Origin: Antedon mediterranea
Taxonomy: Eukaryota; Echinodermata; Crinoidea; Comatulida; Antedonidae
Direction of reading: 5' to 3'
Assembly (NCBI RefSeq): GCF_964355755.1
Contig: NC_092674.1
Coordinates: forward strand, 25,198,001-25,262,000
DNA length: 64,000 nt
The translations under genes were made by a program, and so were the position numbers. Positions 3,245-60,416 of this stretch are shown piece after piece (the first letter of the stretch is position 1; each line of letters starts with the position of its first letter). The notes beneath the pieces are model-generated. The model saw only the letters and a program-made list of their open reading frames with translations, searched no databases and was not told the DNA's origin.

Positions 3245-6200
3245 CCTTAGTTGGTATTCAAAAATTGAAGAAGTTTTCAATTTGTGGTTTTGTATTATTT
3301 TTTGTATGTCACCCACGGGAATCACAGTCTGCCCACAGAACAACTCTTCAAGTAGAACTGCATAGATAAATGCATACTGCTCCTATAATACAAAAGAAAG
3401 ATTACCATTTCCGTCTTTTAATTAAATTCATATAGATATATCGGAAAACAAAACTAGAATGTACAATATTCAATATTGTGACAAAAAGCACGAAAAGAAA
3501 AAAAAAGTTACAAAATACCAGAAAACATAATACAAAATAAACATATATTGTAAAAAAAACATTGAAGCAGAAAGAAACAACGTTGAATGTCATTAATTTC
3601 TTTAATTAATAGCAAAACTTAAAATAAAAAGTTGCAAATAGCATAAGGTAATGTAATGTAAAGAAATATAAAACCTTTGTTTCAACCGTTTGGATACATT
3701 TCTGTCTCATGCTTCGTACAAAATTGAACACATCTACTTTCGATTCTTTTTCTGACATATCCAACATGGCTGCTATAGCTATCATGGTTCCACTTCTACC
3801 GCCCCCCGAACTATTTGACATAAATTAATACGTACGTTATTGTATCTGTCATTCAGTTATAGATTTCCTTAAGTGTATAGAATTAATACCTTTATGCCAT
3901 GGTAAATAGAACGTCTGGTGTTCTTTACATGCCAAGAGGTTTAGCCTTCCCCAACTGACATTTGGCACCTTTTTACAAAATATTTGAAGATCTAAAAAAA
4001 CTTGTAAATGCGATTTTATCCACACACCTGTGTACGATGACTGGTCCACTTTCTGTATCAAAATTCAGTTGAGTTTTCCTAAACTGTTTGATGAAATCAA
4101 GCAGGTGCGGGACTGTGCTGGAAACACTTTTGTCTGACCATTCAGTAAAATGATACTGATACACATTATGGATTACATCATCTTCTCCAACCTTTGAGAG
4201 AAGCAACGTTTTAATAGGTGCTTCCCGGAACGCGAAAATCGCTCCCGGTGACGTCACACTTTGGCTCAATAATTCCATAAATAATTGATTGCTACGTGAA
4301 AGAATCCTCTCGTTAAGAAACCTAAGACAACTATATGTCTCGTTCTGCTTTCATTGGAAAGTTAAATCATATTTACTTAGTATTTTAATGAGTTCATATT
4401 GTCTAAAAACTTTCTAATCTGTATTTTATGCTAAAGATAGGTGTATTAGTTGTTTTAGTATTCGGATGTGTCAAGCTAATATATTCGTACTAACCTCTAT
4501 GTAAAATTATTCTTACCTGTTGAATTTTGAAGTTTCGGAGGACATAGTATTTGTGATCAGTTTCTTTAACGTTCGTTAAAAGAAGATTTCCCAACTCTTT
4601 AGAATGGCCTAAGTATGGCCAATACTTTTTGCACTGTTGCTATAATACAAACAGATAATTTAAAAAGTGTTATAATGCACTTAATCAAATTAAAAAGCTA
4701 AAATGAATAACTACAACACTGGGGTCAACTAGGTACTAGGTGCATCTCCAACTAGCAATCGAGTTCAATAAGATCAGTTGTATTGATCATCTGTAATGTT
4801 AGATAGTCCTGTATTGGCAATCGTGTTGTTCTTTAGCAAAATTCACACTGATGTTGATAGGAAAGGTTTAGGTATATTTGTTGGAATATTGTTGTTATAG
4901 TGTAATTGTGTTTAGGAATAGTGTTGGGGTTCTGGTAACAAAATATAACCTGCCTGTTTTCCTTCAATAAGATTTGTAATCATGATGACAATTCTAGACT
5001 TCTCATTCCAGATCAGTCTCATCATATCGTTGAACGAATCAAATGTAGGCCCTACATACCGTGATATAAAATGAATAAGTCCATGTTATCATTCTGAACT
5101 GAACAGAAAACAATTTTATTATTTTCTATTAGGTCTACTTGAACACCAATTCACTTCCATACAACATTTTGAAGAAAAAAAATGGATCATAAAATCATCA
5201 GCTCGCATAACTAATACAAATAATGTATGTTATTGACATTAATTATAAATTAATTCAGACCCGTAGAGTCTTAAGTATTTGTTATTGCGTTTTAAAAAAT
5301 ATTATAGTCGGATATATTTTTTTAATGACGTGGTATGTATGTGTCGCTTGTTGAAATATGACAAGATAAACATAGTGTTTACCTTCGCATGCAATAAATT
5401 CGCGTGGTGTACGCCATCCCTACAAGAAAAACAAAACATTTTTATTGTATACAAAATGCTTCTTTAAAACATTGTGTGAAGTATTAATTTGAATGATAAA
5501 TTACACCGAATTTTACATTCTGCACATTCTACACATGGAACCAATCGAGCGTGGTCCCATATCATAGAAATACATCCGATACATTATATTTTGTGCATGA
5601 TAGCTGCCAGTCTTACATTACCACTAAATTAAATAATTACAATGCAATAAATAGAACATTGGGTTAACATCAGCACTTCATTTTACAAATTTTGAACCCT
5701 GTCACCACAATATGCCACTGTAAGAAATAAAGTTAAGTAATCGATTTATTGAGCAATAAATTATATCTTCTCAACTACGCCTTTATAAAGCAACTTACAT
5801 CTACATACGAGGCATTTATTTTTTCCGATCCAGGAACAATATCAACCTTGTTGTCATCAAACTCCTGTTGGGATTCCTAAAATAATATGAATGAAAATAT
5901 TACTGAGGATACGATGAATCATGAAATTATACTTCTCTAGTTGTGTACTGTTCTCTGTACTGTACAGATTCGATTCAAAACAAAAATTATTATATCTCGT
6001 CACATAAAGATCAATTCAATCAAAATGAAAGAGGCACTTTAAGCAAGAGATTTGGCTTGGATCCAAAAATTAATTTTTTTATATCGTTCGTTAGTGACTA
6101 GTAACAATAACCAAAATATACTGTAGAAAGTTATAACAATTTAGCGTACCTTAAATTCTTTCTCAAAACCATTTTCAATGCTTAATTGGCGCTTCATCAC

Positions 6201-6441
6201 ATAGTCATGTAACTTTGATAGCTCAATTGATTTGTAATACAGAGATCCAGATTCCCGTTGCGATACAAGCTCAGTATCTGTATAGATGGGATTGTCAACA
6301 GGACCATTTTGAAAATGAATAACTGCATATTCATTCCGTTCATATTTTGTAGACAAGTTTTGATAATCTGTATCTATGTTTAATGTGCTTAAATCCGATT
6401 GATTAGTTGAAGAAAGTGTTTCTTTTGTCGAGATAGTTCGT
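3245..6441 (-). other. Gene A cytoplasmic exons 13-20: ITAM-like juxtamembrane plus degenerate PTP D1
   Basis: The juxtamembrane exon (6150-6441) carries DTDYQNLSTKYERNEYAVI (residues 777-795), which fits D-x-x-YxxL-x8-YxxI. It also has an NPIY motif, a form bound by PTB domains, and ends in a PTP-wedge-like GFEKEFK. PTP landmarks follow: INASYVD, REFIACEGP, MMRLIWNEK, QCKKYWP, YQYHFTEWSDKS and GPVIVH, then SSGGGRSG after the splice. In active PTPs these are YINASY, YIATQGP, W-P-D and V-H-C-S-x-G-x-G-R-[ST]-G. Here the P-loop reads H-S-S-G-G-G-R-S-G (residues 1017-1025): one residue short and without Cys, while the Arg is kept. The WPD loop is W-S-D. The phosphotyrosine loop region is shortened to DDNKVDIVPGSEKINASY. 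The domain ends with EQYAFIYAVLLEELFCG. It is predicted to bind or scaffold rather than dephosphorylate. Confidence 0.75.
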
Positions 6442-9400
6442 CTAATATAGAAAAAAAGTATACTGACTTTTATTAATTACGTTTTAAAATATGTAGGCCT
6501 AATTTCAATTGTAGTGAATACAGAGAGATAGCCTACCGTTTAAGAATCATCAAGATAATAACAACAACGATAAATGAAACAAGCAGTGAAATCCATGCTA
6601 AACCTGAAAAATATAACATTGCAAAAACCTTGATTAAAACACGTACATTGTAACTTTACGGTGTGTACAGCGCAATAGGAACGATTCCTTTACAAAGGAC
6701 AATCTTGTAATGATATAAGAAGATGAAATTCTTTTTTAAACAATACTACTTTTCACTCTTTGTATCATTTTCTAATATCAGAGTCATGCGCTACATAGAA
6801 TTTGGGAAAATGTGATTTTAGCTTTAGTCCTACCGAATCGAAATTTCTTTTCGTCTGACAGGTTACAATTTGTTCCAAATATAAATGTCTTTGTGTCAGG
6901 TGTCCCATGACCGTTTAAGTATGACGCAAGTACTGTGAATGTATATTCTATACATGACTCTATTCCTTCGTCAAATAAAACTTCAGTTTTTGTAGTGTTT
7001 CCTTGCTGAAATAATCCATCACCTGACAGTTCATAATGGTAGGTCACATGATAGTCAAGGATGTCACATGTAGAAGTATTCCATTTTATAAGCAATGATC
7101 CATTTCCAAATGTAGTGCTTTTTATTGATGGCACTAAAGATGAATTAAATTAAATAAGTATTGAAAATTAAATAGCAAACTTTTTTTCTAGTTAAATTTA
7201 AACCAGTGTGGTCATGCAAGTTTTTGCTTTTAGTTTTGTATTTGTTTTCTTTCCTGAAGACAGGCAGTCGGATTAGGCCTAATATTCCTAAAGATTAAAA
7301 AATTGTGAGCTTAAATTGAACAAAATTAAAATCCCCCGCTGGTGGCACTGTTACAAAAAAATAATCAGCTTTTTAAGCTTTACAGATAGGCTTACACTAA
7401 CCTATCCCCAGCGTTATAATAACAATTAGAATCATATTAGCTTACTGAATGCGCTGTGTGTATCGTTCAGTTCCCAATTATTAGAAATCTCCTAAATTTG
7501 AATAACTAACATTACCCGATGGCGCTGTTTGCACCGTTATATTTTCTCCCCAATTACCAGCAATCTCCATGTTATTAATAACTCGAGCGTATGCGACATA
7601 ATCTGTACAGCTTGACAATCCGGATAGTTCAACTTCTAATTGAGTGCTACTTGATATGTTGACTACATCTTGTATATTTCCATCTATGTCCGAGTATTGC
7701 ACTTGATATCGAAGAATATAGTTACATTGGATTCGATCGTATTCACTAGAAACTGGCTGAAGATAATATAAAGGCTTATTTAATTAGGCGTAGTTTGTTA
7801 TTTAATATTAATATTTTTTTAAATAAAATGAGATGGGATAGCAATTTACAGATAAATGCATAAACAGACTATAGGCTTACCTTTAAACTTAAGACGACGT
7901 GGTATTCTTCATTAGCTTTCAATTCTATCCCAGGTTCTTCTAAAGGTTCTATATATGTCAAACAGTTGATAAATAAGCACACAATCAAATCTTCCCTAGA
8001 AATTAATTAGTTTTAAGGAGGACAAAGGAACGTTTATTTTGAGCTAACATTTCTAGCTGATTCTCTACTGAATACCATTAAGTCTAAAAACAAAAATGTG
8101 GAAATCGAAATGTCTCCAAACCGCTTACTTGTGCCCTGAAAATGCTATTTCATTAATCACCAGCTTTCTATAATAGAATTAGGCATACGTATGGTCATTT
8201 AAGATCCTATTTTAATTATAATACACATACAATCCATTGTTGATACCTATAATGGTTATAACATTCATTATGTTTTAATTGCACTATAGGGACAACTGAC
8301 CTGAACAGATTGTGTTTGTTGTTCCAAGTGTACTTCTTGGTCCATCTACCTCGATACCATCAACCATCCTCGAAAATTGAGAGTAGAATTGATATTGCAT
8401 ATTTGGAGTGAGATTATCAATAACAATAAATAAATGGTTATCCGGTTTAATTATCGATATAAATGAATCCATCTGAGATGATTTAGGCCTATATGACAAC
8501 TTTCGATTTGTAATTGTTCCTGTTCCATAGTTTTCACCAAGAACCCAAGTGACGTCAAACGTTAGAGTGGTTGCTGCCTGGTTTACAATATTTGGCGGTT
8601 CAGAACGATACGGTAATACTAATTTTTGTAACAAATAACAAAATAGAGTTATGATTACTAGTTGGTACGAAATTGAAATTTTAAATTCGAATAACGGAAG
8701 GCGTCATTTTTAAAATTGAGCGCAAAATTGTCATTGAACCCATTTAATTACCACGTGATTGGCCTAAAATAGATGGTGCAGTTTATAAGTCTCTGTATGC
8801 GGGAATGTCACTGGTAATATTGAATGTATGTTCTGTTTAAACTGTACATTTATAAATAAGGTTATTGAAATGTGGAATCTTATCTTGATTAGGTTTTCAT
8901 CAGCATGATGGGGTTTGACCTTTCTATATCCAGTTGATATTAATTATCATTTTTTTTTTGTATTCGGTTAGTAGAAAACAGTATTAAAAATAAAGATTCC
9001 TCCAATTATAAATATTGCTTTGGACATGCAGGCAATGATAGGTTCTTAAGACTTTTTTTGCGTTTTCACTACCAATCCACAGTTTAAAAACATTTTCAGG
9101 TCTTCACTTTGTGTCAGGTCTTTTCCTGTTTAAAGCAATATTACTCGCTATACTCATTTGTTTATTTGTTAGTATGTTTCAAGAAGATAATTTTTGTGTG
9201 TGTTTTTTTCTTTTTGGGGTATTCACACACATGTAATCTTTCTTTTCATTTTGTATATGACATAACATGAAGAATTAAGTTATTAACATTAAAATAGTAA
9301 AATAAAAATTGAAATTACATATAGATAGATATATAGGATTTTTAGTAGTTAGTGGGACAGTGAACATTTTTTTAACCAAAGACATTATTTTTAAGTATAG

Positions 9401-12400
9401 AGCATGTTGTTTCCCTACTAAATAAATGAACGTGCAGGCCGACCTGTGCTGCATGTTGGTCCGTACCAAGCCTCATGGCATCCATTAGAACACCTTCCAT
9501 CTCGTGTACAATCTGCCGAATCTTTGCAATGACATGGAAAATTACACAAACCACCAAAAAATCCAGACGAACAGAGTATAGGTTCTATAAAAAAAATTGT
9601 TTGCACAAAAATACAATTTTGCATTGTTTTTATATGCTATATAAATTCATTTGATTGGACGGGCAATAGATTTGCCCCAAGTGTGTATTTTGTTGTCTTT
9701 TTTATGTCATTCCACATTTCCTTGTTTTAATTTACACGTATGAAACGCCATATGTGCAAAATTATTTATCTTTTTAATAATATTAAGACAAAACTCCATC
9801 TGGAGCCCAGACTAGTCGTGAAATAATACGTACTGTTAAACGATCGCGTACCACAAGTAATGGTACTTAAAAAAAAATCATGCACGAAAAAAAAGTATGT
9901 TTAAACAGTTTGTTTACGGGAACACATCGATTAAAGGTACAACTATTCATATTATAAACAAAACGTAAAATCCATTCATACCTAAACACATATTACCAGT
10001 GTAACCTGACGAGCATGTTGACCCGGAAGTACATCCTGTATGTGGACTACAATCGACAATGTCACAATGACATGTTTGACGACAATCCGCTCCGTAGAAT
10101 CCAGCCTCGCAATCTTAACAAAAACAGGTTATCATGTTATACATCGAATACCCGGCCTATTTTTTTTTTCATTTTTGAGTGAAAAATTATGCTCCATATA
10201 TCTAAAATTGTTTAATGTTATTGGTTCTAAGAATTAGCTCACCAGTTTCTTGTCTTGTCGTTAAGGTATGATTGTTAATCTATCTTAATTGCCTAACATC
10301 GTATATACATACAGTACACCAATAATCTATTATTTTACAACCTTTTTTCAATACATTATTTTATTCTATTCTCCTACTATCTATTAGTTCACGAAGCAAA
10401 AAAAAAACGTGTATTGACATTTCACTCATACTTTCACTTTTACAATAATATAGAGAAACAGTGATGAGTATTAATAATAATTAAAATATGGTGAACTAGC
10501 ATCTATATATAAATTATGGTTAATTCTGACATAGGCGAGCACAATGGAAACATAGGACAAATCTCTGCCTTGGATACCTACCTGATCAATCTCAGATGTA
10601 CCGCGAAATGTAAATTTGATAACATTAGTTTTCACTATTACGATATTGTTCCATATTTCTATCTTAGGAAGATATTATAAAGAGTTTAAACAAAAATTTA
10701 TGATTTAATCGGTACATTTCAACTCAATTTCAATTGTACGCGGTCAAAGTAATTTACGGGTTCACAATGAGTTTACGAGTTCACATTGCAACTACCTGGG
10801 TGAAGATACAGTAGTTAAAATATAAAAATTATACTGCAAATTAATAAAGTTCAAATTTAATATACGCTATAAAGCATGAGAATATATTGTGGGGAATAGC
10901 ATTATAAAATGACATAGGGAGATATGATGATAAGACATTTTTTTTTAAATCGAGTGAAATCTCGATAGCTGAGTTTTATTGAATAAGCTGGCAGGAATAA
11001 CTGTAGGCTATCTGTGTTCCATTAGGACCGGGATGTCTGCCCATGTTGCAAGCCGTCTAAAACGTCTTCCTTCTTGGCCCACTCTGTCGCGAAAGTTAGT
11101 TTCAAAAGATGTTTAAATTAAATAATGTATTAATTATTAGGATGGTATTTATTTGAATAAACGCCTCCCCAATAAAACATCACTTTGAACAATAATCGCC
11201 CCCTTCCCCAAACCCAACTATCTAACGCCCATCCACGTTATACACACAATATTGTATTATCCATATATACATTTACCTAATGGCAAACTTCGGTAAATCG
11301 TGCGTTACCACTAGAATATTTACTCGATGGTATATAAAGTGGTTCGTACTTTCGGTACTGATTTTAACCACCTGATGTAACCCTGTTTACTAATTAAATT
11401 GAGTTAGATAATTAGTTACGGACAATTAAAACGAGTTTAGGTTCAAATTTGTCCCAAATAGGGGTGTTTTCCGAACGTGGTATACACGGTCCAATGGATG
11501 TCTATCTTGAAAAATACCCATATACAATATAATACGAGGATGCTTCGCATTTTCCTATCTCCTCCTACGATAATTGTTTTGATAACTGAAACCCGGTTGA
11601 ACAGCTCGAGTACAGCATCATAATGTTGAAGACAGACCGATTTTCTTTAAAAAAATACTATTTGATAGATTTAATATAGGCCTATTGTACGTTTATACAA
11701 ATGTATTGATTTCAGATGAACATTCCAATCTCTCAGACTCCCAGTTTGTAGATAAATTTATGAGCCCTTCCTTTGATTTAACGCAATTAGGTAAATCTAT
11801 GGGCCCTTGGAGAATAAACTATATGCAGGTAAAAAACGAACTCAACTAACGCAAACAGCAGTAAAGCGGTACTTTCATCTAGTTCAGTGTCGTCATTAAT
11901 CATTGGTAAAAATATAGGTAAAAACCCCGATAATAATAATAACTGAGGAAGCATTGTGTCGACGGATCGTTAAGGAGAAGAAGGAGAAGAAGAAGGAGGA
12001 GAAGGAGGAGAAGGAGGAGAAGGAGGAGAAGGAGGAGAAGGAGGAGAAGAATGTGAAGAAGGAGAAGAAGAAGATGGTGGTAGCGTGGGTGCGTATACGC
12101 AAGGAAATATAGCCCACAATACAGTGCCCTAACCTGTTCAACTGTACTTCCTGTTTGTGTCGGCGGGGTCGCGAGCACGTGATGCTTAAGTTATCTCGCC
12201 CTAACATGAGCCGTTGAACGCAATTTAATTAATTGAATTGAATTACCGCTCTCGTAAAATTTAACTAGATCAGTACTTATCTCGGCCTAAGTTCGTTATG
12301 AACCCAACTATAGTATTGCATACTTTGACAATATTGTAAATACTGTACGCCATTTGAATAGACATTTTCTTACTGTGAATGTGGTTACGGTACTGTTAGA

Positions 12401-15400
12401 TAAACACATATACAAAGAACATTTGTGACTGTGGGTAGGCTCTACTGCTGGATATATAAACACATAATATACTAATAAAACCTTTATTACTGACAGTTTC
12501 CTCTCAAAGTTTGTATTAAATAATAATTATTAAAAATATAAACGTCGTAGTGGTGTATCATTACATGTACTTTACTATTTCAATCGACTATAACAGGGAC
12601 AGTTTAACAAAAGTTTTAAATGTTTTACTTTGGTTATTGGTATATAAAACATTTAAAACAATATTTCGTTACTAAATGGATAAAGAATATATTTAAAAAG
12701 TTTCTTCCCATCCTCTTCCCCATCCCTCAACTCTAATGTGATATACAAAACACAAATTGGGTTTGTTTAAATGAGTTCAAATAAAAAGTTTCTCCTTCGG
12801 CGGTAGGCCTAATTCCCAGGGTGCTTATTTTAGTTGACTACTTTAACCATTTTATTTTATTTATTTTTTATTTTATATATTTAGGCAAATTGCCAAGAAT
12901 AACCATAAGCAAATTCAATCACTATCCTTCTTAAAGGTGGCAATCCGTTCATGAGACAAACATATACACACAATGCTCTACATAAACAAAGTCTTTATTA
13001 CAAGTCTTTGGGAGTGGAGTTGTAAATTGTCATTAGACAAAATCCTGACATATGACAGGACTTGAACCCAGGACCCTTGGATTGGCAGCCAAGCAGCATA
13101 ACCACCAGGCCACAACTCCACTCCACCAAATAAAATAAAAATAAATAAAAAAATAAAATTATCATTCCGAGAACCATCGTCTACACTTCCTAGAAGGGGA
13201 GCGAGCGCAGAGAGCTCACCCTCTAGTTGACCTGATTATGGTAACAAAAACGTAAGTAACCTTTTTTACAATCGTTTCCTCCAAAACCATTGATGCACGT
13301 ACAGCCAACTGGGTCCGGTGGACACAAAAGAGCTCCAATGCAATTCTGACCAGTACCACATACAACGTTGCAGTCACGACCCCAGTTGTTATTTCCACAA
13401 CCTATCGTAAATAGAGCACATGACATTATATTATTCAAAAACATGTAAATTATTTACACCATACCATACCATTATAATAATTAAATGATTACCGTTTTTG
13501 CAAGTATCGCCTTTAAATCCTGCTGGACAAATACAGACACCCGTCTTATCGTCACAAACTCCACCATTATAACATACGGGACAGTCCATTTCACAGTCTG
13601 GAGGATTCCATTTTGATGAGGGACAAGCTAATACATTGAATAATAAGTAGGTATAAACATAAATCATGAGACAAAACAAAGTATTTATATATATACCATA
13701 AATCAGAATTAGAATAAGGACACAAATCGACTTAGAGTGTTTTATAACATTAGCTTAAATTTCTGAATGTGACCATGCCTTAAAGTTTCCATACTTTGAC
13801 AATCTTCCACACTATTCCTGCTTTTTATTTTTATTATTTATGTTGAATTTTACACAGTGTACAGAAAAAGAAAGTTGTCGTAATGAGAAATGTTCTATTT
13901 AGAAAGACACGGGGTATTTGACCAGTATTTTTTAAGTCTGAGTCTTCACAAATTGAAATTGTTTGCAGACCATCTGTTTTCATATTTTTTTTCCAATTCC
14001 CAATATTAAAATCGTTATTTGTAATAAATTTATAATGAATAAAGAACAGTTCGTAACCTACCTCTGACAATAAGTCTCATGATGCCACGGTTATCATCCA
14101 GGATATCACCTGTTCCTGTATAACATTCATATACGCCATCATCTTTCATTCGTATGTTATCGATCACAGCAGACGTACTACCCCTCAGATTGTGTATTTC
14201 ATCACCGTAATTATGTCTCCAACGTAAATCATTAAGATAACCACCTTTACTGAGATTGATAGTGACAGACTCTCCAATACCGACGGTTATAGTTCTATAC
14301 TCCATTGCAATAGTGGCTGTGAAATAGTAATACGTACAGTATTAGCAATGTTGTGTAATCAATCTCCTATGAATAAATAGGCCTACATTTGAATCGATAG
14401 CAAAATTTCAGTCAGGGGAAAAATGGAAAAGGTTTCCTACTTTCTAGGATTTTTGACAACTCTTGTAACATGACCACAGTGCTGATTTTTCCATTTCCCT
14501 CTAACTGATATAGGCCTCTAAGCAAAATTACATTACTCACCAGAAGAGGATCCTAAGACAATTGCCGTGTTGGCGACTTCTCTATCTTTCTTTGCTTCAA
14601 ATGAAAATACACCAACTCTCTGGTATTCTATGTTAGCAACGCCAAGAAACGTAAACTCGGTATGTATTCGGTATATAATTTGGCTTCTTGTGTAAAATAT
14701 ATTGCCGTCTGGCATATCTTTATATTTCAAATCACGAGTATTACTACCCGAATACCCGGTATCGTCCCAAGTCAGGTTACTCTTCCCATGAATAGTCTTG
14801 TATAGTATTCCGACCGATAAATCTCTGATATCACTATCGTTTTGAAGTGCGTATCCTCGAAACCAGGCGCTCCTTTGCGACCATGGGCTACCCGAATATA
14901 GTGTTACATCCAATGGATCTAAAGATTATGGAAAATATTTATATAAATAATAATAACGTACAGTTATTCTCAGCTTACAACATTAATCCTTCAGTCTGTC
15001 ATAACAGAATCTGAGTAATGTATGCTTTTGTTTGAAAGCTTTCTTCTGAATATTAACGTAGAGCCTATTAGTCTCTTCATTCTTTATTCAATAATAAAAA
15101 CATTAAAATGTACATGTCTTCCAAAACAAAAGCAGGAATAACATGGTACTTATTTAAACACAAAAACACACTAAACAATAAAATAATAGTTGAAAACAAA
15201 TTGTTAGCTGAGTAGGGAACAGTTCTCCCACTTTATGCCTAGAATTCCAATATATACCAACAGACACAAACGCGTCTCTATGGCTTACTATGTCGTTCGG
15301 TTGGTCGGTCGGTAGGTAAACACTAACTCAAATTTACGCACGCCACTGCAGCCAAATATATGGCCTTTTTTTTCTTATAAGTGAGGGATAGAATTTCATT

Positions 15401-18017
15401 TTATTGATTTTAAAAATCTACGCTTAGTCTCCTACAACCTATCTCCACACATATTAACTTATAAGAGAAGGCTCTAGTAGGAAATTAGGGTTCCACCCCT
15501 GGGGCACAATAAAAAAAAATAAATACAAATAAATGTCTTACCAGATCAGGTTGATAACATTTACAAAGCGTGTCCTATGGGTTACGTTTGACCTATTTAG
15601 TCGAGATGTTTGATTTAACATAGACTTGCCCCAAGTCTGTATTTATCTTTTTTTAAATTTTTTTAATTTTATTTCGACCGCGATTTTTGTCTATCAAAAC
15701 TCAAGTAATACACGTATGAAACGCCATATGCTCAAAAATATTTATATGTTTACTAATATTAAGACAAAACTCTTTCTGGAGCCCAGACTAGATTTAACAA
15801 AGTAACTTTTTTTTTGGCATATCTTAGGAAGCAGAGGTCGTAGAAATATAATTATTTACCAAAGTACTCACAATACGTATGTTTGTATATACAATTTAAT
15901 GGCAGTTTCTCGCGCAAAATGATCTTGCTTTCAAATGGGGTACATATTTTAATAACCGATGTACATTGAATTTAACAATTTACTCTCAAATTATACAGAT
16001 ATATACATACAAAGCTTGGCCAAACTGACAGCAAATGGTATTTTTTACACTTGACATAATTGCACGACTAGGCCTATTATATATATTATTATTTTAACCG
16101 TTTAGCTGACCTTCTAATAAGATTCTAAGGGACAACCAAAACAGATACTATAACCAAATAACACAAATTTGACAAATATTTAAAGAAAAGCATATTCAAC
16201 TTCCTCCTAAGTTCATTAAGATGCATTAAAAACCAGTATGCTTAGCAGTCCAAGAGTTGTTCTTGGAGCCATGCTTTTCTTGACTTTGCTAAGGATTTCA
16301 ACTCAATAGATAGAAAACTAATGTTAAATGTTCTATTATACAAATAATGGATGGATAATGGATAAAAGTAATATACACAGGCACTATGGTTAAAAATAAC
16401 GGATGGGTTTCAGAATGTGGAGTACTTCAAGGTTGCCCATTGTCTGCCTTATTATTTACTCTTGTACAGTAGTCGAGGTAATGGCAATAAATATAAGAAT
16501 AATCCATTGTGTAAGGGAATTGAATTATATTATTATGATAATATTGTGAAAATACCTCAGCTCGGTGATGACACAGTGATTTTTACAAGTGAATATAGCT
16601 TAACATTTTTTCCTCTTGAAATTAATGCTTTTTGTAGTATTTCGGTGTTAAAGCTAAATAAAGGAAAATGTTGTAAAGGAATCTTGATTGGATCAATTCA
16701 AAATAACCTAGCAACCCCTCTTGGTATCACCAGGTAAATTTCTAGGAATTAATGTTGGCGATAAAAAACAAAACTGGGAAGATAAAATTGTGGACTTCGA
16801 GCATACTTTAAGGCTATGGGAAACATCTTACCTTCTTAGGAAAAATGATCATAATTAAAAGTCTAGAAATTTTAAAATGAATATACAATGCTAGTATTAT
16901 TGAGATACCAACACATATTTCCAATGGTAGAAAAGTTATTGCACAGATTCCTATGGGCAAATAAAAAAAAAATTAATAAAATAGAAGAAGAGGAAGAGGT
17001 TAATATGATTTTTATGTAGTTGTGAACTCGTTAAAGCTAAACTGGGTTAAGAGATTAATAAGCCCAGATCCAGGCAAGTGGAAATGTATTTCAAAATATT
17101 ACATGTAACCTATAGAAAGTACATTAGTGATAAGTATGCTTAATTTTAAAGAACATAAACAATTACAAATTATGCCTCAATTTTATTTAATTATGATTAA
17201 TGCGATTGTCAAAATATAATATTGAACTGTTAGATCCTCAAGTTACAGCAAATTAAATCTCAAACCCAAACGTATACTGTTAGAGAGAAAATCTTTATAC
17301 TTCAAAGATTGGTTAAAGTCGGGCTATAAAACATTGGTGAGATTTTGGTCAATAACAGATTTTTAAATCTTAGAGATTTGATTCCCACGTTATTTAAAAA
17401 GCGTAATGGGATACTTCAAGCTAATGAATGCTGTTCCCACTGAATGGAAGAGAGTATTGGCACAAACTAGAATAGAAAAAGAACAAGTTATTGTTGAAAT
17501 TAAAAATGCATTATTCCAATCCAATTCAGCAAATTACTGAAAAAATAAAAATGAGAGAGAGAGAGAAAAAGGAAAAAAAGTACTTATTTCCAACAAGCTT
17601 GCGTAACGCATACAATCCTAAATTATGAAACATAGAGGAAACTATAGATTGATAATTATTGGAATGTAAGATAAATATACATTTTTAGCCCTCACCTGGC
17701 CTTTAACAGTTTAAAAATGCCTGCTGTACAGGGCAGGGGTGCATGTAAAGGTCAAGACAACTGGATATGTAGGCCTACATAAAAATTACATTAAAAATAA
17801 AAGTTGACTTCCGCCACAAAAAGAAAACAAAATAAAGTATGAAGGTACATGATAGGTATATCAATGATCAAATAAGACAAACACAATTAAAAAAAATTAT
17901 GATTCTAAACTGTGTAAGCCTTGTAAACATACCTGATGACCCGGATTGAAACGTCAAAGAAGAAAAAGCTAGGTTTATGACCAGGCAGATGCAGTTTGGA
18001 AAACGTTTAGCCAACAT
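3245..18017 (-). CDS. Gene A: Tie-like ectodomain fused to an ITAM-like segment and a receptor PTP domain lacking its catalytic Cys (3' end open)
   Basis: Twenty exons join in frame to 1109 codons without a stop: 17933-18017, 14541-14918, 14062-14316, 13493-13627, 13261-13401, 9982-10113, 9444-9584, 8301-8618, 7881-7948, 7516-7756, 6834-7133, 6537-6603, 6150-6441, 5799-5876, 5383-5419, 4954-5051, 4517-4639, 4028-4191, 3675-3810, 3245-3382. Residues 1-28 are a signal peptide starting MLAKRFPNCI. Residues 29-154 are the cluster-specific N-terminal domain and 155-239 an Ig-like domain (motif DDGVYECY). Four EGF-like modules fill 240-422; the second has CPPDPVGCTC as in Tie receptors. FN3-like modules fill 423-731, then a helix at about 734-752. 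Residues 754-851 form a tyrosine-rich juxtamembrane segment, and the rest is PTP D1. This is a plasma-membrane receptor by inference. The start was chosen because the ATG opens a hydrophobic signal shared with C and D. The exon 7 donor (GTCGGC) is weak and intron 16 begins with GC. Residues needed for catalysis are lost (see the cytoplasmic entry). No stop codon was found, so the gene continues leftwards. Confidence 0.8.
11262..12850 (+). repeat. Dispersed repeat family R1, longest copy
   Basis: Parts of this stretch recur inverted at 31365-31520 and 19950-20640. Shared words include CTATTTGGG before GTG-rich sequence, TATACCATCGAGTAAA (inverted), TTACTGT..GGTACTGTTAGAT and CCAGGGTGC..ATTTTAGTTGACTAC. 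No ORF is supported. The repeat is probably a non-autonomous transposon; termini are not resolved. Confidence 0.45.
11973..12074. repeat. Purine microsatellite (GAAGGA/GAGGAGAAG)n
   Basis: About 100 bp of pure G/A on the plus strand inside gene A intron 5. On the transcribed minus strand it is a long polypyrimidine tract. The long open frames across it are low-complexity artefacts. Confidence 0.9.
13011..13124 (-). repeat. tRNA-derived SINE-like repeat flanked by inverted ends
   Basis: Read on the minus strand, it has a tRNA-like A box (TGGCCTGGTGG) and a B box (GGTTCAAGTCC) 40-50 bases apart, as in pol III promoters. GGAGTGGAGTTGT at the left and its inverse at the right bracket the unit. 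No intact tRNA fold is claimed. Confidence 0.5.
15268..15355 (+). repeat. Degenerate copy of the AGTCGCGTG/TCGG-repeat element
   Basis: CTATGTCGTTCGGTTGGTCGG followed by CACGCCACTGCAGCC matches the better copy at 26932-27018, with decayed ends. Confidence 0.5.
16260..17560 (+). mobile_element. Decayed LINE reverse transcriptase (L1/Tx1-like)
   Basis: Broken translations show LDFAKDFNSIDRKL (RT motif like DFAKAFDSVD), then ECGVLQGCPLSALLF (the QGCPLS motif), then QLGDDTVIF where the active-site ADD is expected, then LKLNKGK, FLGINVG and W..SYLLRK..IIKSL. The order is that of the palm and thumb of non-LTR reverse transcriptases. Stops and frameshifts are frequent. It lies antisense to gene A in its first intron. 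Confidence 0.65.
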
Positions 18018-19420: not shown

Positions 19421-19499
19421 TACAATGAAACTTTAAATTGTATTAAACTACTGTGGAGTAGCTTTGCGTCAGGAGTTTAGTAATTGGTCAGATGTTTTA

Positions 19500-20793: not shown

Positions 20794-21913
20794 TTAATAT
20801 ATAGGCTTTTGCAAGGTTAGTAGTTCAGTAGTGGCAACGGGCTTAATATTGTTATATTCAATTTGATTGTCCAATTCAGTATCGTCATAGACCAGATCCG
20901 GTTTAGGCTTTGGTACAGTGTTTTCCAGTTCAGTAGGAGAAGTGGGAACGGGCTTAATGTTGTTATATTCAATTTGATTGTCCAATTCGGTGTCGTCATA
21001 GATAAGATCTGTTTCAGGCTTTGGTTCAGTGTTTTCGAGTTCAGTAGGAGAAGTGGCAACAGGTTTAGTATTGTTATATTCAGCTTGATTGTCCAATTCG
21101 GTGTCATCATAGACAAGATCCGATTCAGGCTTTGTTACAGTGTTTTCGAGTTCAGTAGGAGAAGTGGCAACATGCTTAATGTTGTTATATTCAATTTGAT
21201 TGTCCAATTCGGTATCGTCATAGACCAGATCCGGTTTAGGCTTTGGTACAGTGTTTTCCAGTTCAGTAGGAGAAGTGGCAACGGGCTTAAAATTGTTATA
21301 TTCAATTTGATTGTCCAATTCGGTATCGTCATAGACCAGATCCGGTTTAGGCTTTGGTACAGTGTTTTCCAGTTTAGTAGGAGAAGTGGCAGCGGGCTTA
21401 AAATTGTTATATTCAATTTGATTGTCCAATTCGGTGTCGTCATACACAAGATCCGGTTTAGGCTTTGCTACAGTTTTTTCCAGTTCAGTAGGAGAAGTGC
21501 CAACGGGCTTAAAATTGTTATATTCAATTTGATTGTCCAATTCGGTGTCGTCATACACAAGATCCGGTTTAGGCTTTGGCTCTGTGTATACGGGTTCAGC
21601 AACGGAAGTTGCAACATTTGACTTGCCATTTTTATATTCAATTTGATTTTCTATTTCGGTGACATTACATACAGGACCCCGTTGAGGCCTTGGTTCAGCA
21701 TATACGTGTTCAGTATTGGAATTGGTAACATTAGACTTACTATTTTTATACTCATTTTGATTTTCCAATTCATAGACATGATCAGATTCGGGGGTAGAAT
21801 TAGGAATTCTATATTGATATTTATAGTCTAATTCAGTGATATCATAAACAGTATATGGTCCAGGCTCCGATTTTGTTGGTTTCGCAGAAGAACTGGGTCT
21901 CGTGTGTCCAAAT
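20794..21913 (-). repeat. Gene B cytoplasmic exon: seven 37-residue tandem units (111 bp each) plus degenerate ones
   Basis: One exon encodes the whole tail. Seven near-identical units contain VYDDTELDNQIEYNN and a KPVATSPTELENT-like linker; they occupy about 20817-21600. Upstream units are diverged and include TVYDITEL, EHVYAEP and EPVYTEP. In each unit the second tyrosine is Y-N-N, fitting the pYxN core bound by Grb2-type SH2 domains. VYAEP and VYTEP fit pYxxP, the Crk/Nck type. Units differ by few bases, indicating recent expansion or gene conversion. EHVYANLKPP in gene C and IYTDTEL in gene A resemble pieces of the unit, so all three tails look related. Confidence 0.8.
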
Positions 21914-39100: not shown

Positions 39101-40879
39101 CAGATACTAATCAATTACATTACCTAATATAGAACCTATCGGCGAACCTGAGATTGAATTGGAAAAAGTTGAAGACTATCGCATAATTTTGAGTGTAAAG
39201 GTATGATTAAAAATATAAGTATAAACTATTGGGATTTTTTAATGCACAGAACAACATATTGAATTATTTTTCTCTATACTGCAATTCATTTACTTATGTT
39301 TAGCCTCTTTCTTGAGTTTAAAAGTATTATTAAAGTAAAAGAATACATTCCTTGGGGTTTGTAATGTACAATAAAAAAACATAGTATAGCCTAGATCAAT
39401 GTTATATTCACATAATAAAACACTATATTTTTTTTTTGTCTCCGTCACTTCAATTCCTGTACTTCTATTAAAATTATATTCAGCCCGTATCTAGTGAATA
39501 TGATCACGTCCAATGTCGGATTCTCCGATATCAAGTACGATACTCGGACGTGGATGGAAATGTACAAGGCCTAGTCAGCACAAGTAGTTCCCAATTGGAA
39601 GTTGAATTTTCAGAATTGTCAAGCTGTACTGATTATGTCATCAACGCTCGAGTTGTTAATAACCTGGATATCGCTGGCAGTTGGGGACAAGACCTTACAG
39701 TGCAAACAGCTCCCTCAGGTTGGTTTGTCGACCTACTAAATATGTTTACATTTGTCGTGAAACGCTATATTACATTCTAGTATTATAGTACTTATTTTGG
39801 TATTTTATTTATTTTTTTATTCCAATAGAGGCATCGATAGAGAGTAATCCATTCACAAACGGAACACATTTGTTGATAAAGTGGAAAGCTTCTACGTGTG
39901 ACATCCCAGATTATCAGGTGACCTACCATTATGAATTGTCAGGTGATGGAGTATCTCGGCAAGTGATAACAACAGAAACTGAAGTTGTATTTGGCAAAGA
40001 CACTGAGTCATGTAAAGAATATACATTTACAGTATTGGCAACATATTTAAGCGTTAACGGAACATCTGACAGCAAGAAAGTTGTGTTTGGAACAGATTGT
40101 GCTAACCAAGGAAACTCAAACCAGACTGAAGGTGTGTAACATCTTTTCCTTGTTTACCTTTCAGATTGATGTTATGCAGTTGATTTTTCGCCAAAAAGCT
40201 TACACGTTGTTGAGGAAACCATAGAAATAAATGTGTTCTTTTATTTTTTCCAGGTTACGTAATAAGTTTTGTAATTGGCTCAATAATTTCGTCAGTTATC
40301 ACAGTTGCTTTCACCTTGATATTACAACGGTAAAGTAATGTTTCTATGGTTAAAAAAGAAATTAAATATTGACTGACACAGTTACTATTAAAGTTCTTCT
40401 AACAAAATAAAAGTAGTTATCGTTGCAATAAATCAATGGAATTTGCAAGTGAAATTGGAAGATGTAGGCAGGATTTGTTTAGTTAATTCTTTTACCGTAC
40501 CGACCCAGAATTCTATTTCATTTTTCAATAGATCATTATTTTTATGAAAATATTGCTGACAAATCCCACAACGATACTTGATCCTTTACCTTCGTTGATC
40601 GATGAAATATAACACAACTATTCAAACTTTACTAATTTTAGATTTCGTCGTAAACATTTGGAAAAGGACGTTGGTAAATCTACTCAACCCTCTACTCAAC
40701 ACAATGTATGCACAATAGATACGGATTATCAAACTTTGTCGAAAAAATGTGAAGAAAGTGCATACGACGATATTAACCTTACTGTTGCTACTTCTTCTAC
40801 TGAACACGTTTATGCAAACCTTAAACCGCCTTTAGCGGAACATGTTTATGGTCACACGAAGACAACCTATTCCTACTAG
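30102..40879 (+). CDS. Gene C: Tie-like ectodomain receptor with an ITAM tail
   Basis: Thirteen exons join in frame to 855 residues plus stop: 30102-30186, 30410-30802, 30923-31171, 35918-36052, 36903-37043, 37299-37484, 38117-38257, 38509-38826, 39133-39200, 39484-39718, 39829-40131, 40254-40329, 40642-40879. Domains: signal peptide 1-28, N-terminal domain to 159, Ig-like 160-242, EGF-like modules 243-443, FN3-like modules 444-751, TM 752-776 (SFVIGSIISSVITVAFTLIL), tail 777-855. All extracellular introns are phase 1 except the one inside the second FN3 (phase 0). The EGF3 exon is 186 bp against 132 bp in A and B; it adds an acidic insert (TDEDLYYG). The FN3-1 donor is A then GTAATC, slightly off consensus. 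The ATG shares its signal sequence with A. No lesion was found, making this the cleanest member of the cluster. Likely a cell-surface activating receptor (inference). Confidence 0.85.
31365..31520 (-). repeat. Dispersed repeat family R1, inverted partial copy
   Basis: Inverse of about 11270-11480: shared CACCCCTATTTGGG, AAACAGGGTTACATC.GGTGG and TATATACCATCGAGTAAA words. It lies in gene C intron 3. Confidence 0.5.
32346..32363. repeat. Poly-C tract (18 C)
   Basis: Uninterrupted C run in gene C intron 3. The minus-strand open frame crossing it is not supported as a gene. Confidence 0.9.
32472..32927 (+). mobile_element. AGTCGCGTG/CACGCGACT element with TCGG/TCTG repeats
   Basis: Begins AGTCGCGTG and ends with its inverse, CACGCGACT. 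Inside, a unit (ACTATGTCGG then GGTCGG/TCTG runs, GGTATCACTATGCG, TTTTATCG, TTTCTGTAC) is repeated four times. The same ends and core recur at 26932-27018 and 42988-46680, with a decayed copy at 15268-15355. It is a non-autonomous element by structure; its superfamily is unknown. Confidence 0.55.
33940..35664. mobile_element. Foldback transposon with long inverted arms
   Basis: The left arm (33940-34230) and right arm (35360-35664) are inverse copies over about 290 bases: ATCCTTCAAATTGTGATAA, GAAACTTTGCACAG, TCATTAGGGTGTC, GGTCAGGGGAAAGCC and CCATTTTGGATTTC. In the left arm a unit of about 153 bp with GATTTCAAAATGGCGGA is repeated three to four times (34080-34560). The centre holds a broken Cys-rich ORF on the minus strand. 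It lies within gene C intron 3. Target duplications were not resolved. Confidence 0.7.
34749..35232 (-). pseudogene. Broken transposon ORF with a C-terminal Cys-rich (CxC-like) motif
   Basis: The first frame (35232-34972) ends SAALREHVKRSVLQA and then breaks. One frame over, DPANWGWRKDGN, FSPVWSSLLELSF and the Cys-rich end CGHTDCDLGRCKCRKSDLRC plus TELCGCQGKCG follow, ending in TAA at 34749. The order (REHVKR...AxWGWxxxG...Cys-rich end with CRKxxLxCT) is one I recognise from a protein end found in transposon-like repeats of marine invertebrates and fish. Its function is not known to me. Confidence 0.5.
35812..35826. repeat. Poly-G tract (15 G)
   Basis: Uninterrupted G run about 90 bases upstream of the gene C EGF1 exon acceptor. 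Confidence 0.85.
40642..40879 (+). other. Gene C last exon: ITAM and further tyrosine motifs
   Basis: Encodes residues 777-855. The segment DTDYQTLSKKCEESAYDDI (803-821) fits the ITAM consensus [DE]xxYxx[LI]-x6-8-Yxx[LI], with eight residues between the half-sites. SAYDDI alone also fits the ITIM consensus. VYANL (834-837) fits YxxL and the pYxN Grb2 core; VYGH and a C-terminal TYSY follow. Known ITAMs bind tandem-SH2 kinases (Syk/ZAP-70 family) after Src-family phosphorylation. That this one does so is inference. Confidence 0.75.
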
Positions 40880-43035: not shown

Positions 43036-43066
<31 letters not shown>

Positions 43067-44716: not shown

Positions 44717-44742
44717 AATATTACTCTTGTTAACATTGACAG

Positions 44743-45792: not shown

Positions 45793-45836
45793 TTCTGTAC
45801 GTGATCTTTTAATATAGCTGTATTTCTTATTTTTTA

Positions 45837-46475: not shown

Positions 46476-46895
46476 TTATACGAGCACGTCAAAAGTGACA
46501 GGCTACGCACGTGTAAATTAAAAAAATATAAATGTTTTTAAACATTTCAACATTTTTAATTAATGTTCAGTAATTTCGGTCAGTATAGTTCACTATGTCG
46601 GTCGGTCGGTCGGTCGGTCGGCTGTCGGTCTGTCTGTCTGTCGGTCGGTCCGGTATCACTATGCATTGTAGCACGCGACTTAATGGCTGTTGGCCTTGTT
46701 TTTTGTATCTTTTAGTTTAGTTTTTAATAAAAATAAAATTATGGTAAAAATATCTATAATTTTAATATATAAATTAAGTTACATTTTTCTTATAAATTTA
46801 TAAAATTAAATTTATACATATTCTCTATTATCAATTGTTATTTAATACTTTAGTTTAATTCAAGATTATAATATGTTGTATTCCTTTGTTTGTAG

Positions 46896-47647
46896 GAATT
46901 CATGAATCGACAGCTTGCCGAATTGTAAGGCAAGTTTCACTGGCCTTACAGAGACATATGAATGAGTATGTGTTTTCCCCGATGGATGCAGCAAGCATTA
47001 GGTTAACAAAAATTAAATTTCATGACATATCTGGTTTCCCTAATGTCATTGGAGCGGTTGATGGCACTCATGTCCGGATACAAGCTCCAACAGTCGACGA
47101 ATTTGTTTATGTGAACAGAAAAGGATATCATAGCCTGAACATCCAAGTCGTCTGTGACGCAAACATGCGGTTCACAAATTGTGTAGTGCGTTGGCCCGGT
47201 TCAACGCATGATTCCAGAATTTTCAGAGAGAGTGGTCTTGGCGTAGCCTTTGAAAATGATGAAATGCCAGAAGGATATTTGTTGGGGGATTCTGGGTATG
47301 CTTTACGGCCATTTCTGTTGACACCTTTTATAAATCCAATTACTCACGAAGAACGAAGGTATAACAATGTACATTCCATAACAAGAAGTATTGTCGAGAG
47401 GACAATAGGTGCTTGGAAAAGGCGAAGAAAACCGTATGCAGCCTCACAGAACCTGCAGCCTCACAGAACCTGCGCTGTGGTAGCAGCAACAATGGTCCTT
47501 CATAATATGGCTCGTAATTTGGGTTTACCAGAAATTGAAAATGATGAGGATATTGATATAGGGAATGCAGGGCAGCGCAATGAACACATTGAAGACAACA
47601 ATGGACGTGCAATCAGGCAGATGGTTGCAAATGCAATCGCTAATTAA
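46896..47647 (+). CDS. Harbinger DDE transposase (HARBI1-like), catalytic exon
   Basis: About 250 codons, acceptor TTTGTAG, stop TAA at 47645-47647. GIHESTACRIV is a DNA-binding-type helix segment. FPNVIGAVDGTHV carries the first catalytic Asp, WPGSTHDSRIF the second, and RSIVERTIGAWKRR the Glu. The D, D and E residues are all present and this exon is intact. It is superfamily-typical (DDE_Tnp_4 type), but its upstream partner exon is incomplete. Confidence 0.85.
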
Positions 47648-51119: not shown

Positions 51120-51452
51120 TTCACTGTTCTCCACTCGCGCCAAATTGGGTCCACTTGAGCACAGTGTATTAACATACTAAAAGATATTAAAATTAAGTGG
51201 CTTTATTTCTATTTTATATCACTGTGCTCCACTGGCGCCAAATTTGGTCCCCTTGAGCACAGTGTATTAATACGAAAATATTGAATCTTAAGTGACTTTA
51301 TTTTTATTTTATATCACTGTGCTCCCCTGGTGCCAAATTGTGTCCACTTGAGCACGGTGTTTTAACATACGAAAAGATATTATAATTTAGTGACTTTATT
51401 TCTATTTTATATCACTGTGCTACCCTGGTGCTAAATTGGGTCCACTTGAGCA
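51120..51452. repeat. Tandem array of about 105-bp units next to the Harbinger right end
   Basis: Three to four units share CACTGTGCTCC, TGG(C/T)GCCAAATT, GTCCACTTGAGCACAGTGT and a TTTATTTCTATTTTATAT spacer. CACTGTGCTC and GAGCACAGTG are inverse, so each unit can form a hairpin. The array ends about 185 bp from the terminal repeat. Confidence 0.8.
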
Positions 51453-58000: not shown

Positions 58001-60416
58001 GTAATTTGTGTCAAGTCATAACAATTAATTACATTTCTTCTGTATTGTTTTTGGGGATTGTTTTTATTTTATCCAATAAAATATTTCCGCTAGCTTTACA
58101 TCAATTGTGTAAATGGTTTTAAAAAATCATTATTAATTGATTGTGAGGCTACTTCATTTATTTCTTAGTACTAATCAATTACATATTTATAGAACCTCTT
58201 GACGTACCTGAGATAGATTTTAAAACAGTTGAAGACAATCGTATCATCTTGAGTCTAAAGGTACAGTGACATCAAGTTTTAAATAAACTACATTGTAGGT
58301 TATATGAAATTCTCTATTGACATTCATGAAAACAATAGCTGATGATTATATTATATAATAGACTTATTTATTTCTATTAAACTATGTTCTTCAGCCAGTT
58401 TCTAGTGAGTATAATCGAATCCAATGTAACTATATTCTTCAATATCAAGTGAAATATTCGGACATAGATGGAAATGTACAAGGCTTAGACAGCCCAAGTA
58501 GTGCTCAATTAGAAGTTGAATTTTCGGATCTGTCAAGCTGTACTGCGTATGTTATAAATGCTCGGGTTGTTAATAACATGGATTTTGCTGGGAGTTGGGG
58601 ACAGGACATAACAGTACAAACAGCACCCTCAGGTTGGTTGATTAGTTACTCGCTAAGTAACGTGGTCTATAAATAAAACATTTTGTTTTTGTCGTAAAAA
58701 TACTACTATTTACTTTTTTCCTCATATAACTGTATTTAATAGGCTTTATTTTGAATAATTGATTTTGTATTCCAATAATAGAGCCATTGATAGAAAGTAA
58801 TCCATTCACAAATGGAACGCATTTGCTGATAAAGTGGAAAACTTCTATGTGCGAAAATCAGGTGATCTACTATTATGACCTGTCAGGTGATGGATTAGTT
58901 TTGCAAGGGAACACAACAGAAACTGAAGTTGTATTTGGAGAAGGAATAGAGTCAAGTAAAGAATATACATTCACAGTATTAGCGTCATATCTAAATGTCA
59001 ATGGGACGTCAGAAAACACGAAAGTTATGTTTGAATCCGATTGTGATCAAATGAAAGGTATGCTATATTGGGTTATAATAGTAGACCTAATTCGACTTTT
59101 TGTTGTTAAGGAACATTGTACATGGTCCAGAAAATACTACGTTTTGTCTCAAGGGATATGACCATATCATAGCTGTTGGCTTGTTAATCTTGGTTCCCAC
59201 TAGAAGAACAATCTTGCCGCAACGTAATTTCATGTACCAAAAGAACAAGCGCAAGCAGAACACAAATCAGCTTTCCGCAGTTTTGCGTTGCTTGTGGCAG
59301 ACCTTATGTCGTTTTCGTAATAGATTCAACTTTACGCACCGCAAACTGGCAAACGCAAGGAATATGTTATTTGCGCATGCTCATCAAGGGGATGTCAATT
59401 TTTGTCACACATGCTTAATGTATATATTATTTGGCTATGTGATACGCCAGAAGCCATGTTTCGACTACATTGTAGTAGGCCTACCTAATTTTTGTGAAAT
59501 TAAAAAAAAAAGATTTTCTTACTTTGCCCTGCGGCAGCTTAAGCACGGCGTAAATAAATATTTAAATTTTACATAATATAAATAAATGTGTTCTTATATT
59601 TTTCAGGTTACATAATAGGTTTTGTAATTGGTCCAGTTATCACAGTTGCTATCACCTTAATATATAAACGGTAAATAATAAATTGAAAAACATTTTTAGA
59701 CGCGACACATTAAATGATATAGTTACAATAACGATGGAAATATGTAATTCAACTTTAATAAATACAATGGTCTATATAAATAATACAAAATGAGATTAAT
59801 AAAAACTATACCATTGAAATTTAAATACAGTAACTTGGGAAATGTACACAAAATGTGTTAATTAGTTCGCTATCGAATTAATTAATATGTAACAGGATAT
59901 TACATGACGATTTTTGAACTTTTGTAAAACTTCCACTAAGAGAGGTTTGGAAAAAGGTCAAATATTAAACATGCCCAATGAATAAACATGCCCAATCAAT
60001 CTGCACTTATACTAACTTGTTTTATTGTTGTTTTGTTTTCATTTTTTTATATCTGTTTTTGTGTACTAATTACAGTATACATTGTTTTATTTATTTATTT
60101 TCATGGATGCACAAATTGTTTTTGAGTGCTATCGATATAATGGTGTATGTTCAAAGAATGAATGAATATTAATTCTTTCATCTTACCGACACCTGACTTC
60201 CCGACACACTTTGTGTACATCTCCGACTTTCACTTCCAAATCTCATTGTTTTATTATTAATCATATTGTTCTGTATAGAACATTGTTATTGTGCAAGTTT
60301 TATCGACTATATTGCCACCATAACTAAAGACACATTATATTGTTCTCATTGTTATAATTAAATATAACCACTACTCACACTTTTTACTAATTTTAGATTT
60401 AGACGTAAACATTGAG
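52025..60416 (+). CDS. Gene D: Tie-like ectodomain receptor with a six-residue cytoplasmic end
   Basis: Thirteen exons join in frame to 763 residues plus stop: 52025-52106, 52402-52779, 54717-54965, 55408-55542, 55948-56088, 56470-56658, 57111-57251, 57523-57834, 58193-58260, 58395-58632, 58782-59057, 59607-59670, 60398-60416. Domains: signal peptide 1-27, N-terminal domain to 153, Ig-like to 236, EGF-like modules to 438, FN3-like to 736, TM 737-757, tail R-F-R-R-K-H then TGA. The last exon starts exactly like that of gene C, but two substitutions turn the Leu codon after R-R-K-H into a stop; the downstream DNA keeps little similarity. The EGF3 exon has the long form as in C. The EGF1 donor is A then GTAATA, so its junction codon is Ser rather than Gly. 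The open ectodomain argues that it is still expressed, as a non-signalling or partner-dependent receptor (inference). Confidence 0.8.
52795..53570 (+). repeat. MITE-like element, copy 1 in gene D intron 2
   Basis: Left part: AATAATGCCATGAGGTAAATG ... its inverse, around a TTTCAACGAGGCGAGCCGAGTTG centre. Right part: AGTACTATTGAACGGCCGTT palindrome, then CACCATGTGACACACAATCG and ATGACAGGAATTTATTT. The order is repeated in copy 2 at 53660-54560. Confidence 0.6.
53660..54560 (+). repeat. MITE-like element, copy 2 in gene D intron 2
   Basis: A near-perfect palindrome at 53663-53825 (GAATGTTT..GTGTAATGGTACAAATAATGGC with its inverse) is followed by sequence related to copy 1, interrupted by an R2 repeat copy, then AGTACTATTAAACGATCGTT, CACGCCATGTGACCCACAAT and ATGACAGGAATTTATTT. 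Confidence 0.6.
54120..54380 (+). repeat. Dispersed repeat family R2, copy 2
   Basis: Inverse of the copy at 19163-19420, inserted within the second MITE-like copy of gene D intron 2. Confidence 0.5.
55111..55286. repeat. Palindrome around a SINE tail
   Basis: ATTAGATGTTTTGCCCTACT and CTGACGTAATTTGTAC at the left reappear inversely at the right, about 55 bases per arm. Between them is a tRNA-SINE tail (GTGGGTTCGAATCCCACCCG, then a TTGCGAA..TTCGCAA hairpin) like that at 19500-19700. It lies in gene D intron 3. Confidence 0.7.
55648..55740 (+). pseudogene. Vestigial duplicate of the EGF1 exon in gene D
   Basis: GAAATTTGTGATTACAAGAC, then GGGTGTCTGCATTTGCCCAG and CAGGATTTAAA match the 3' half of the EGF1 exon, and even the start of its downstream intron (GGTAATAACATAG) is kept. 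The 5' half and acceptor are gone and the last cysteine region is scrambled, so it is not a usable exon. It closely resembles the gene C version. Confidence 0.7.
59058..59606 (+). other. Gene D intron 11 with an inserted repeat-like block
   Basis: A long open frame (59100-59576) crosses words such as GGTTCCCACTAGAAGAAC and CGCAACG/GCGTTGC that also occur near 36520-36560. I read it as MITE-like repeat DNA, not an exon, because genes A, B and C go straight from FN3-3 to the TM exon. Confidence 0.4.

Follow-up and report, generated by a model that had tools for sequence, protein, structure and literature searches.

A crinoid receptor cluster with a shared Tie-type head and differing but related tails

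Introduction

Tie is a developmental receptor, and angiopoietin is bound by the second immunoglobulin (Ig) domain of Tie2. A window of 64,000 nt from the crinoid Antedon mediterranea (contig NC_092674.1; the window is this whole stretch) raises the question of what a Tie-type ectodomain, here called the head, does on receptors that carry no kinase. The window contains four paralogous genes, A to D, in which a first-pass annotation had seen one Tie-like head with four different cytoplasmic outputs, laid out as in paired immune receptors. Here we describe the shared head and the kinship of the tails. Whether A-D belong to a crinoid array of single-pass receptors that descended from a Tie-headed receptor protein tyrosine phosphatase (RPTP), kept their heads, changed their tails and work as paired receptors is a question on which we consider the evidence evenly poised.

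Cluster layout and head identity

Gene models were built from splice acceptors, donors and phases. In an all-against-all comparison of stop-to-stop frames the same exons paired repeatedly across the window, revealing genes A (minus strand, 18017 to approximately 3054, continuing beyond the left window edge), B (minus strand, 28467-20794), C (plus strand, 30102-40879) and D (plus strand, 52025-60415). B and C are arranged head to head, with first coding exons approximately 1.6 kb apart. Each gene has 12 exons in the order signal peptide (SP), NT, Ig, EGF1-4, FN1, FN2a, FN2b, FN3 and transmembrane (TM). In the exon models of A, C and D the head introns are GT-AG and the incoming phases are identical (eight times 1, 0 at FN2b, 1, 1 and then 2 for the tail exon). 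The EGF3 exon has 132 bp in A and B, 186 bp in C and 189 bp in D, and the NT, Ig, FN1, FN2b, FN3 and TM exons vary by a few codons. The first-pass annotation had all extracellular exons in common with matching lengths and phases; the exon set and the phases of A, C and D stood, while the lengths of EGF3 and other exons and the FN2b phase of B departed from it. The SP exon of B was chosen by eye (hydrophobic, ending in SSG, in correct phase), since a blastn search using the exons of C and D recovered the SP exon of A and no similarity to that of B. As modelled, the cluster of four Tie-headed genes is real.

Residues 336-855 of C are 100% identical to the annotated A. mediterranea protein P0001 (P numbers denote fetched proteins). 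Among the 138 proteins fetched, 28 are named Antedon, and 13 of these are listed on a contig of 31,901,198 bases, as is P0001. Annotated A (P0021; 98.9% identity to our model over 739 aa) and annotated C lack the N-terminal parts and start mid-head. This could point to a partial modelling artefact in which real transcripts join the exons otherwise, for example by linking the N-terminal exons modelled for A and C to different genes. We regard such an artefact as very improbable: the annotations of P0002, P0004, P0005, P0008 and P0009 have SP, NT, Ig and EGF in the same order as our models, and A, C and D are consistent with one another in exon order and phases.

A sequence search with the D head returned Tie2 at 1.8e-24, the next family following at 3.1e-4. 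The succession Ig2-EGF1-EGF2 with a Tie-type EGF2 is present, CPPDPxGCxC occurs in all four genes, and the predicted fold of an Antedon paralogue, rather than of A-D themselves, is Tie2-like over Ig1-Ig2-EGF. The Tie domain order includes a third Ig between EGF3 and the FN3 repeats. A-D share with Tie1 and Tie2 (TEK) Ig1-Ig2-EGF1-3, the CxPDPxGCxC of the second EGF and the FN3 repeats; they differ in having four EGF-like exons, in lacking the third Ig (FN1 directly follows EGF4 in all four exon models) and in lacking a kinase, no kinase family being found in a Pfam scan of the four proteins. The assignment of these heads to the Tie type, proposed from domain order and motifs, is well supported by the sequence matches and the predicted paralogue fold, and the absence of a kinase was confirmed.

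Tails of the four genes

Gene A (3200..18017, minus strand) encodes the head, a TM segment, a stretch resembling an immunoreceptor tyrosine-based activation motif (ITAM), a juxtamembrane segment and a first protein tyrosine phosphatase (PTP) domain, D1 (exons 5876 to approximately 3245; Pfam PF00102, E 3.3e-50). The read-through end at 3200 was replaced by a splice at approximately 3245, as in P0021. The latter, a protein of 989 residues including D1 and a second PTP domain, D2, differs from our model at two junctions, both within the phosphatase domain. Exons ptp5 and ptp6 (3687..4191, minus strand) meet in the D1 loop VIVHSSGGGRSG (VIVH-SSGGGRSG), which is identical in P0021, is one residue short and lacks the catalytic Cys, departing from the HCX5R pattern; the KNRY motif is missing as well. 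P0021 continues into a D2 with HCRDGVCRSG, a CX5R loop as far as sequence can tell. Most of D2 lies outside the window, and the D1-D2 linker exon used by P0021 lies inside it (3146-3054, minus strand; tblastn of P0021 residues 736-766, 100%). The D2 of P0021 and this exon rule out that A stops after a single inactive phosphatase domain; the earlier claim that A ends in a PTP domain without its Cys therefore holds for D1 and not for the end of the protein. With TM, D1 and the D2 of P0021, A is by its sequence a two-domain RPTP that also carries an ITAM-like stretch: YQNL-x8-YAVI, which matches the pattern YxxL/I-x6-8-YxxL/I, and IYTDTEL precede the juxtamembrane segment and the PTP domain.

An intact paralogue, the Tie-headed RPTP P0004, is encoded on the same contig, with HCSAGAGRTG in D1 and HCLDGVCRSG in D2. 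A and P0004 share the D1-D2 arrangement of the LAR, RPTP alpha and mu/kappa groups, and the best solved relatives of P0021 are LAR, RPTP S and RPTP alpha. These groups differ from A-D in that the latter have a Tie-type ectodomain, a Cys-less D1 in A and no PTP domain in B, C and D.

In B, head and TM are followed by a tyrosine-rich, putative docking tail of 373 codons. An in-frame 111-base repeat of 6.8 copies (20830..21579, minus strand), encoding VYDDTELDNQIEYNN units, holds most of its seven YDDTEL motifs, nine Y-x-N sites and 25 Tyr; YDDTEL and EYNN are invariant among the six complete units, whose ratio of nonsynonymous to synonymous differences (pN/pS) is 0.40. Y-x-N suits Grb2-type SH2 domains. 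The tyrosine repeat noted earlier was borne out, a docking role being putative. Two weak matches to B-like tails were obtained (7.6e-7 and 1.2e-4). The tail exon of C (40642..40879, plus strand) encodes YQTL-x8-YDDI, which fits the ITAM pattern as had been proposed, and two further Tyr sites. D ends, as the first reading had it, in six residues, RFRRKH; its tail exon can be aligned to the initial 39 bases of the C tail exon and then stops. A partial second copy of the EGF1 exon lies in an intron of D (55632-55763, plus strand).

Four tail alignments scored above all of 2000 shuffles each: C-P0003 (177), A-P0004 (148), C-A (59) and B unit-P0004 (45). The B unit resembles VYGNTQLDNQ in the juxtamembrane segment of P0004. 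By these alignments A forms a bridge between the phosphatase and ITAM-like forms, and the tails of A, B and C, whose segments resemble each other or P0004, are related. Head, cluster and differing tails stood as first described, and what fell was the idea of four unrelated outputs. ITAM-like tails recur in P0003 and P0010, and P0002 and P0005 have tails of 35 and two residues. In Anneissia, P0012, P0014 and P0018 possess the juxtamembrane segment and end there or shortly beyond; these may represent receptors without a PTP domain, or models that are cut short. P0030 of Anneissia japonica combines a Tie-type head with a tyrosine-rich tail of 255 residues in which no Pfam domain was found.

Wider family and ancestry

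The family was gathered by searching with the P0004 head and a head profile. The Tie-type head module was found in crinoids, sea stars, a brittle star, urchins, sea cucumbers, hemichordates, amphioxus and chelicerates. Head matches comprised 140 rows (138 proteins and the four window genes, less P0001 and P0021), of which 20 weak or partial heads were dropped, leaving 120 for a midpoint-rooted tree. Output labels were taken from precomputed Pfam lists, our own Pfam scans covering 18-21 of the 138 proteins; they gave 35 PTP, 13 kinase and two G-protein-coupled receptor (GPCR) rows, 67 unlabelled rows and three single window labels, with ITAM-like, short and perhaps truncated models among the rows marked '-'. 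Taxon labels were guessed for P0099, P0100 and P0106 (chelicerate) and P0047 (sea star). Among 115 inner branches, 37 are starred and 41 open. An HCX5R-type loop was present in 33 of 39 proteins listed as PTP-bearing; the loop pattern found none in P0021, P0035, P0069, P0112, P0123 and P0125, which may have incomplete models or off-pattern loops.

A-D fall in a crinoid set of 28 rows (97*). The set nearest to this crinoid clade, and outside it, consists of four PTP rows and two rows without a recognised domain, with no kinase row. Kinase rows are likewise absent from the side of the midpoint root that holds 44 rows, suggesting that a Tie-headed RPTP is a likelier ancestor than a Tie kinase. 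A-D are thus likely offshoots of a Tie-headed phosphatase, and descent from Tie receptors that lost their kinase is disfavoured by the same rows. The seven output labels require 36 changes on the tree compared with 46.4 in shuffles.

The pattern of a single head joined to differing outputs is also seen in further echinoderms. In sea stars, P0123 (PTP) and P0126 (kinase) are 75% identical over 1182 residues, through TM, P0130 (PTP) and P0132 (kinase) 81% over 865 residues, and P0128 (PTP) and P0129 (kinase) 84% over 710 residues with a second block through TM; the members of each pair are listed on contigs of equal length. The P0126 kinase matched an entry named EGFR (9p9u) at 3.5e-94, Tie2 at 1.8e-83 and FGFR1 at 9.2e-69. 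Like A-D, these pairs join one Tie-type head to different outputs within a species; unlike A-D, they have F5/8C domains, more FN3 repeats and enzymes as both outputs. P0108 and P0111 of sea cucumbers carry a Tie-type head on an adhesion GPCR (7tm_2 and GPS). Chelicerate heads occur on RPTPs in spiders (P0103, P0107, P0131) and a tick (P0136), the PTP domain of P0103 being found by Pfam scan; if not convergent, this combination predates the deuterostomes.

Related genes in other sea animals suggest that the Tie-type outer part is a plug-in module which evolution has coupled to phosphatases, kinases and further outputs. A broader reading, which we offer tentatively and hold somewhat short of even, is that the Tie ectodomain is an old animal recognition module with kinase, phosphatase, ITAM-like, docking, stub and adhesion GPCR outputs. 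Echinoderms would run ligand-matched arrays of it (kinase versus phosphatase in sea stars; phosphatase, pseudophosphatase, ITAM-like, docking and stub in crinoids), and vertebrate Tie1 and Tie2 would be one remnant of a system of paired-receptor type. The literature searched, which covered few subscription papers, contained no description of Tie-headed phosphatases or paired Tie heads.

Constraint and divergence

From SP to TM, the ratio of nonsynonymous (dN) to synonymous (dS) divergence was 0.34-0.45 in all six pairs of A-D, with pairwise dS of 0.37-0.56. Random mutation of the A, B and D coding sequences at 0.05 substitutions per site left a stop-free fraction of 0 to 0.0075 in 400 runs, and no run at 0.1 or 0.2 substitutions per site was stop-free. 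The dN/dS values show from sequence that the heads of A-D are under constraint. This bears on the view that the array is in decay, with A, B and D as young pseudogenes among surplus copies of a Tie-headed RPTP and function confined to C and the intact paralogues. The broken D1 loop of A with its missing KNRY motif, the anomalous FN2a-FN2b junction of B, the lack of annotated proteins matching B and D among those fetched and the ends of the three Anneissia proteins, which truncated or decayed models would share, are in keeping with it. However, A, B and D retain long open frames, every pair shows the low dN/dS, both Tyr motifs are kept in the B units, A is annotated with D1-D2 as a single protein and ITAM-like tails recur in P0003 and P0010. 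We consider decay unlikely.

Mean dS was 0.27 in Ig and 0.30 in both EGF1 and FN1, compared with 0.51-0.68 in the remaining seven exons tested. In column permutations for low dS, values as extreme arose in 1 of 400 (Ig), 10 of 400 (EGF1) and 1 of 400 (FN1), and in none of 1000 for the three grouped, a grouping chosen post hoc after the values were known. The low dS of Ig (the counterpart of Tie2 Ig2), EGF1 and FN1 could reflect recent exon exchange or a local effect. Conversion tracts extending into introns were rejected: aligned DNA blocks between the genes are mostly exonic, though longer, intron-including blocks occur between C and D.

Mean dN was 0.294 in NT, the counterpart of Tie Ig1, and 0.081 in Ig. 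Such a diverged NT would be expected if A-D were Tie-type receptors with separate ligands and jobs (e.g. development, adhesion, regeneration), their tails reflecting functional drift and not opposed readings of one ligand, and the developmental role of Tie itself would agree. The copies are nevertheless lineage-specific and lie within one cluster, the exon matching Tie2 Ig2 has diverged little, and kinase and phosphatase heads are matched in sea stars. Separate ligands are a minority possibility that we take seriously.

Proposed paired-receptor function

Clustered paralogues, alike ectodomains and different tails, as in the exon identities and tails described here, are the features that the first-pass annotation had likened to paired immune receptors; this layout stood, and activating, scaffolding and decoy roles in an immune setting would be extrapolations from it. 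Under the favoured explanation, a receptor with an Ig1-Ig2-EGF x4-FN3 x3 head and a tyrosine phosphatase output would have been the ancestor. P0004 would retain an active-looking D1 and D2; A would have kept both domains, lost the catalytic Cys of D1 and carried the ITAM-like stretch; C would have the ITAM-like tail only; B would have multiplied a tyrosine unit like the juxtamembrane one of P0004 into a docking tail; and D would terminate just inside the membrane. Most probably, similar heads would bind a common ligand and the tail would decide the response. C, and perhaps A, would recruit kinases, B would assemble adaptors, the intact RPTP paralogues would dephosphorylate and D would act by titration.

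Several results weigh against this explanation. The FN2b acceptor of B (AATAAAATAAAG followed by CT) is out of phase with FN2a, and the frame is kept only by skipping FN2a; of five AGs at the site, none preserves both the frame and FN2a. For B and D there was no match above 90% among 83 fetched proteins; in the tree built later, their closest heads are 83% and 81% identical, respectively. Weak tail alignments were B unit-A (36; 39 of 2000 shuffles), P0003-P0011 (38; 86 of 2000), C-P0004 (33; 142 of 2000) and B unit-P0011 (33; 152 of 2000). The ITAM pattern arises in 3.2% (A), 1.2% (C) and 0.3% (P0003) of 5000 tail shuffles, and a relaxed form also matches P0025, P0055, P0068 and P0078, in P0025 and P0078 at least partly within or beside enzyme domains. 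The head tree was a quick one, its midpoint root set with neither vertebrate Tie nor a non-Tie outgroup. Finally, the low dS of Ig, EGF1 and FN1 points to possible exon exchange, which would make the heads similar even if selection for a single ligand played no part.

Vertebrate paired receptors (FcR-like, KIR and SIRP among others) and the Botryllus fester/FcoR system resemble A-D in that their genes are clustered, their ectodomains similar and their tails short or of ITAM or docking type. They differ from A-D, whose ectodomain is of Tie type, whose tails go back to the juxtamembrane region of an RPTP and whose common ligand is presumed. PMC12065747 describes Botryllus FcoR with hemITAM or an immunoreceptor tyrosine-based inhibition motif (ITIM). 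PMC13409769 reports a Tie-2-like receptor and an F-like RPTP in starfish coelomocytes and cites work on SpTie1/2 in sea urchin coelomocytes; PMC10855541 lists a Tie-1-like kinase in sea urchin. If the favoured explanation is true, the angiopoietin-receptor head is recast as a swappable sensor and an invertebrate example of graded outputs from one head is gained, including kinase and phosphatase on nearly the same head. Whether tail choice reads one ligand as go, stop or ignore would become testable, as would the origin of vertebrate Tie signalling.

Other elements in the window

Between C and D lie remains of a non-long terminal repeat retroelement (44746-46475, minus strand) with a reverse transcriptase (PF00078, 7.7e-29) and an endonuclease fragment (PF14529) under its cut-off, and a transposase frame (46859-47644, plus strand; DDE_Tnp_4, 4.4e-36). 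Tandem arrays are located at 755-1401 (328-base unit), 34075-34561 (153), 51121-51452 (98) and 60785-61345 (164).
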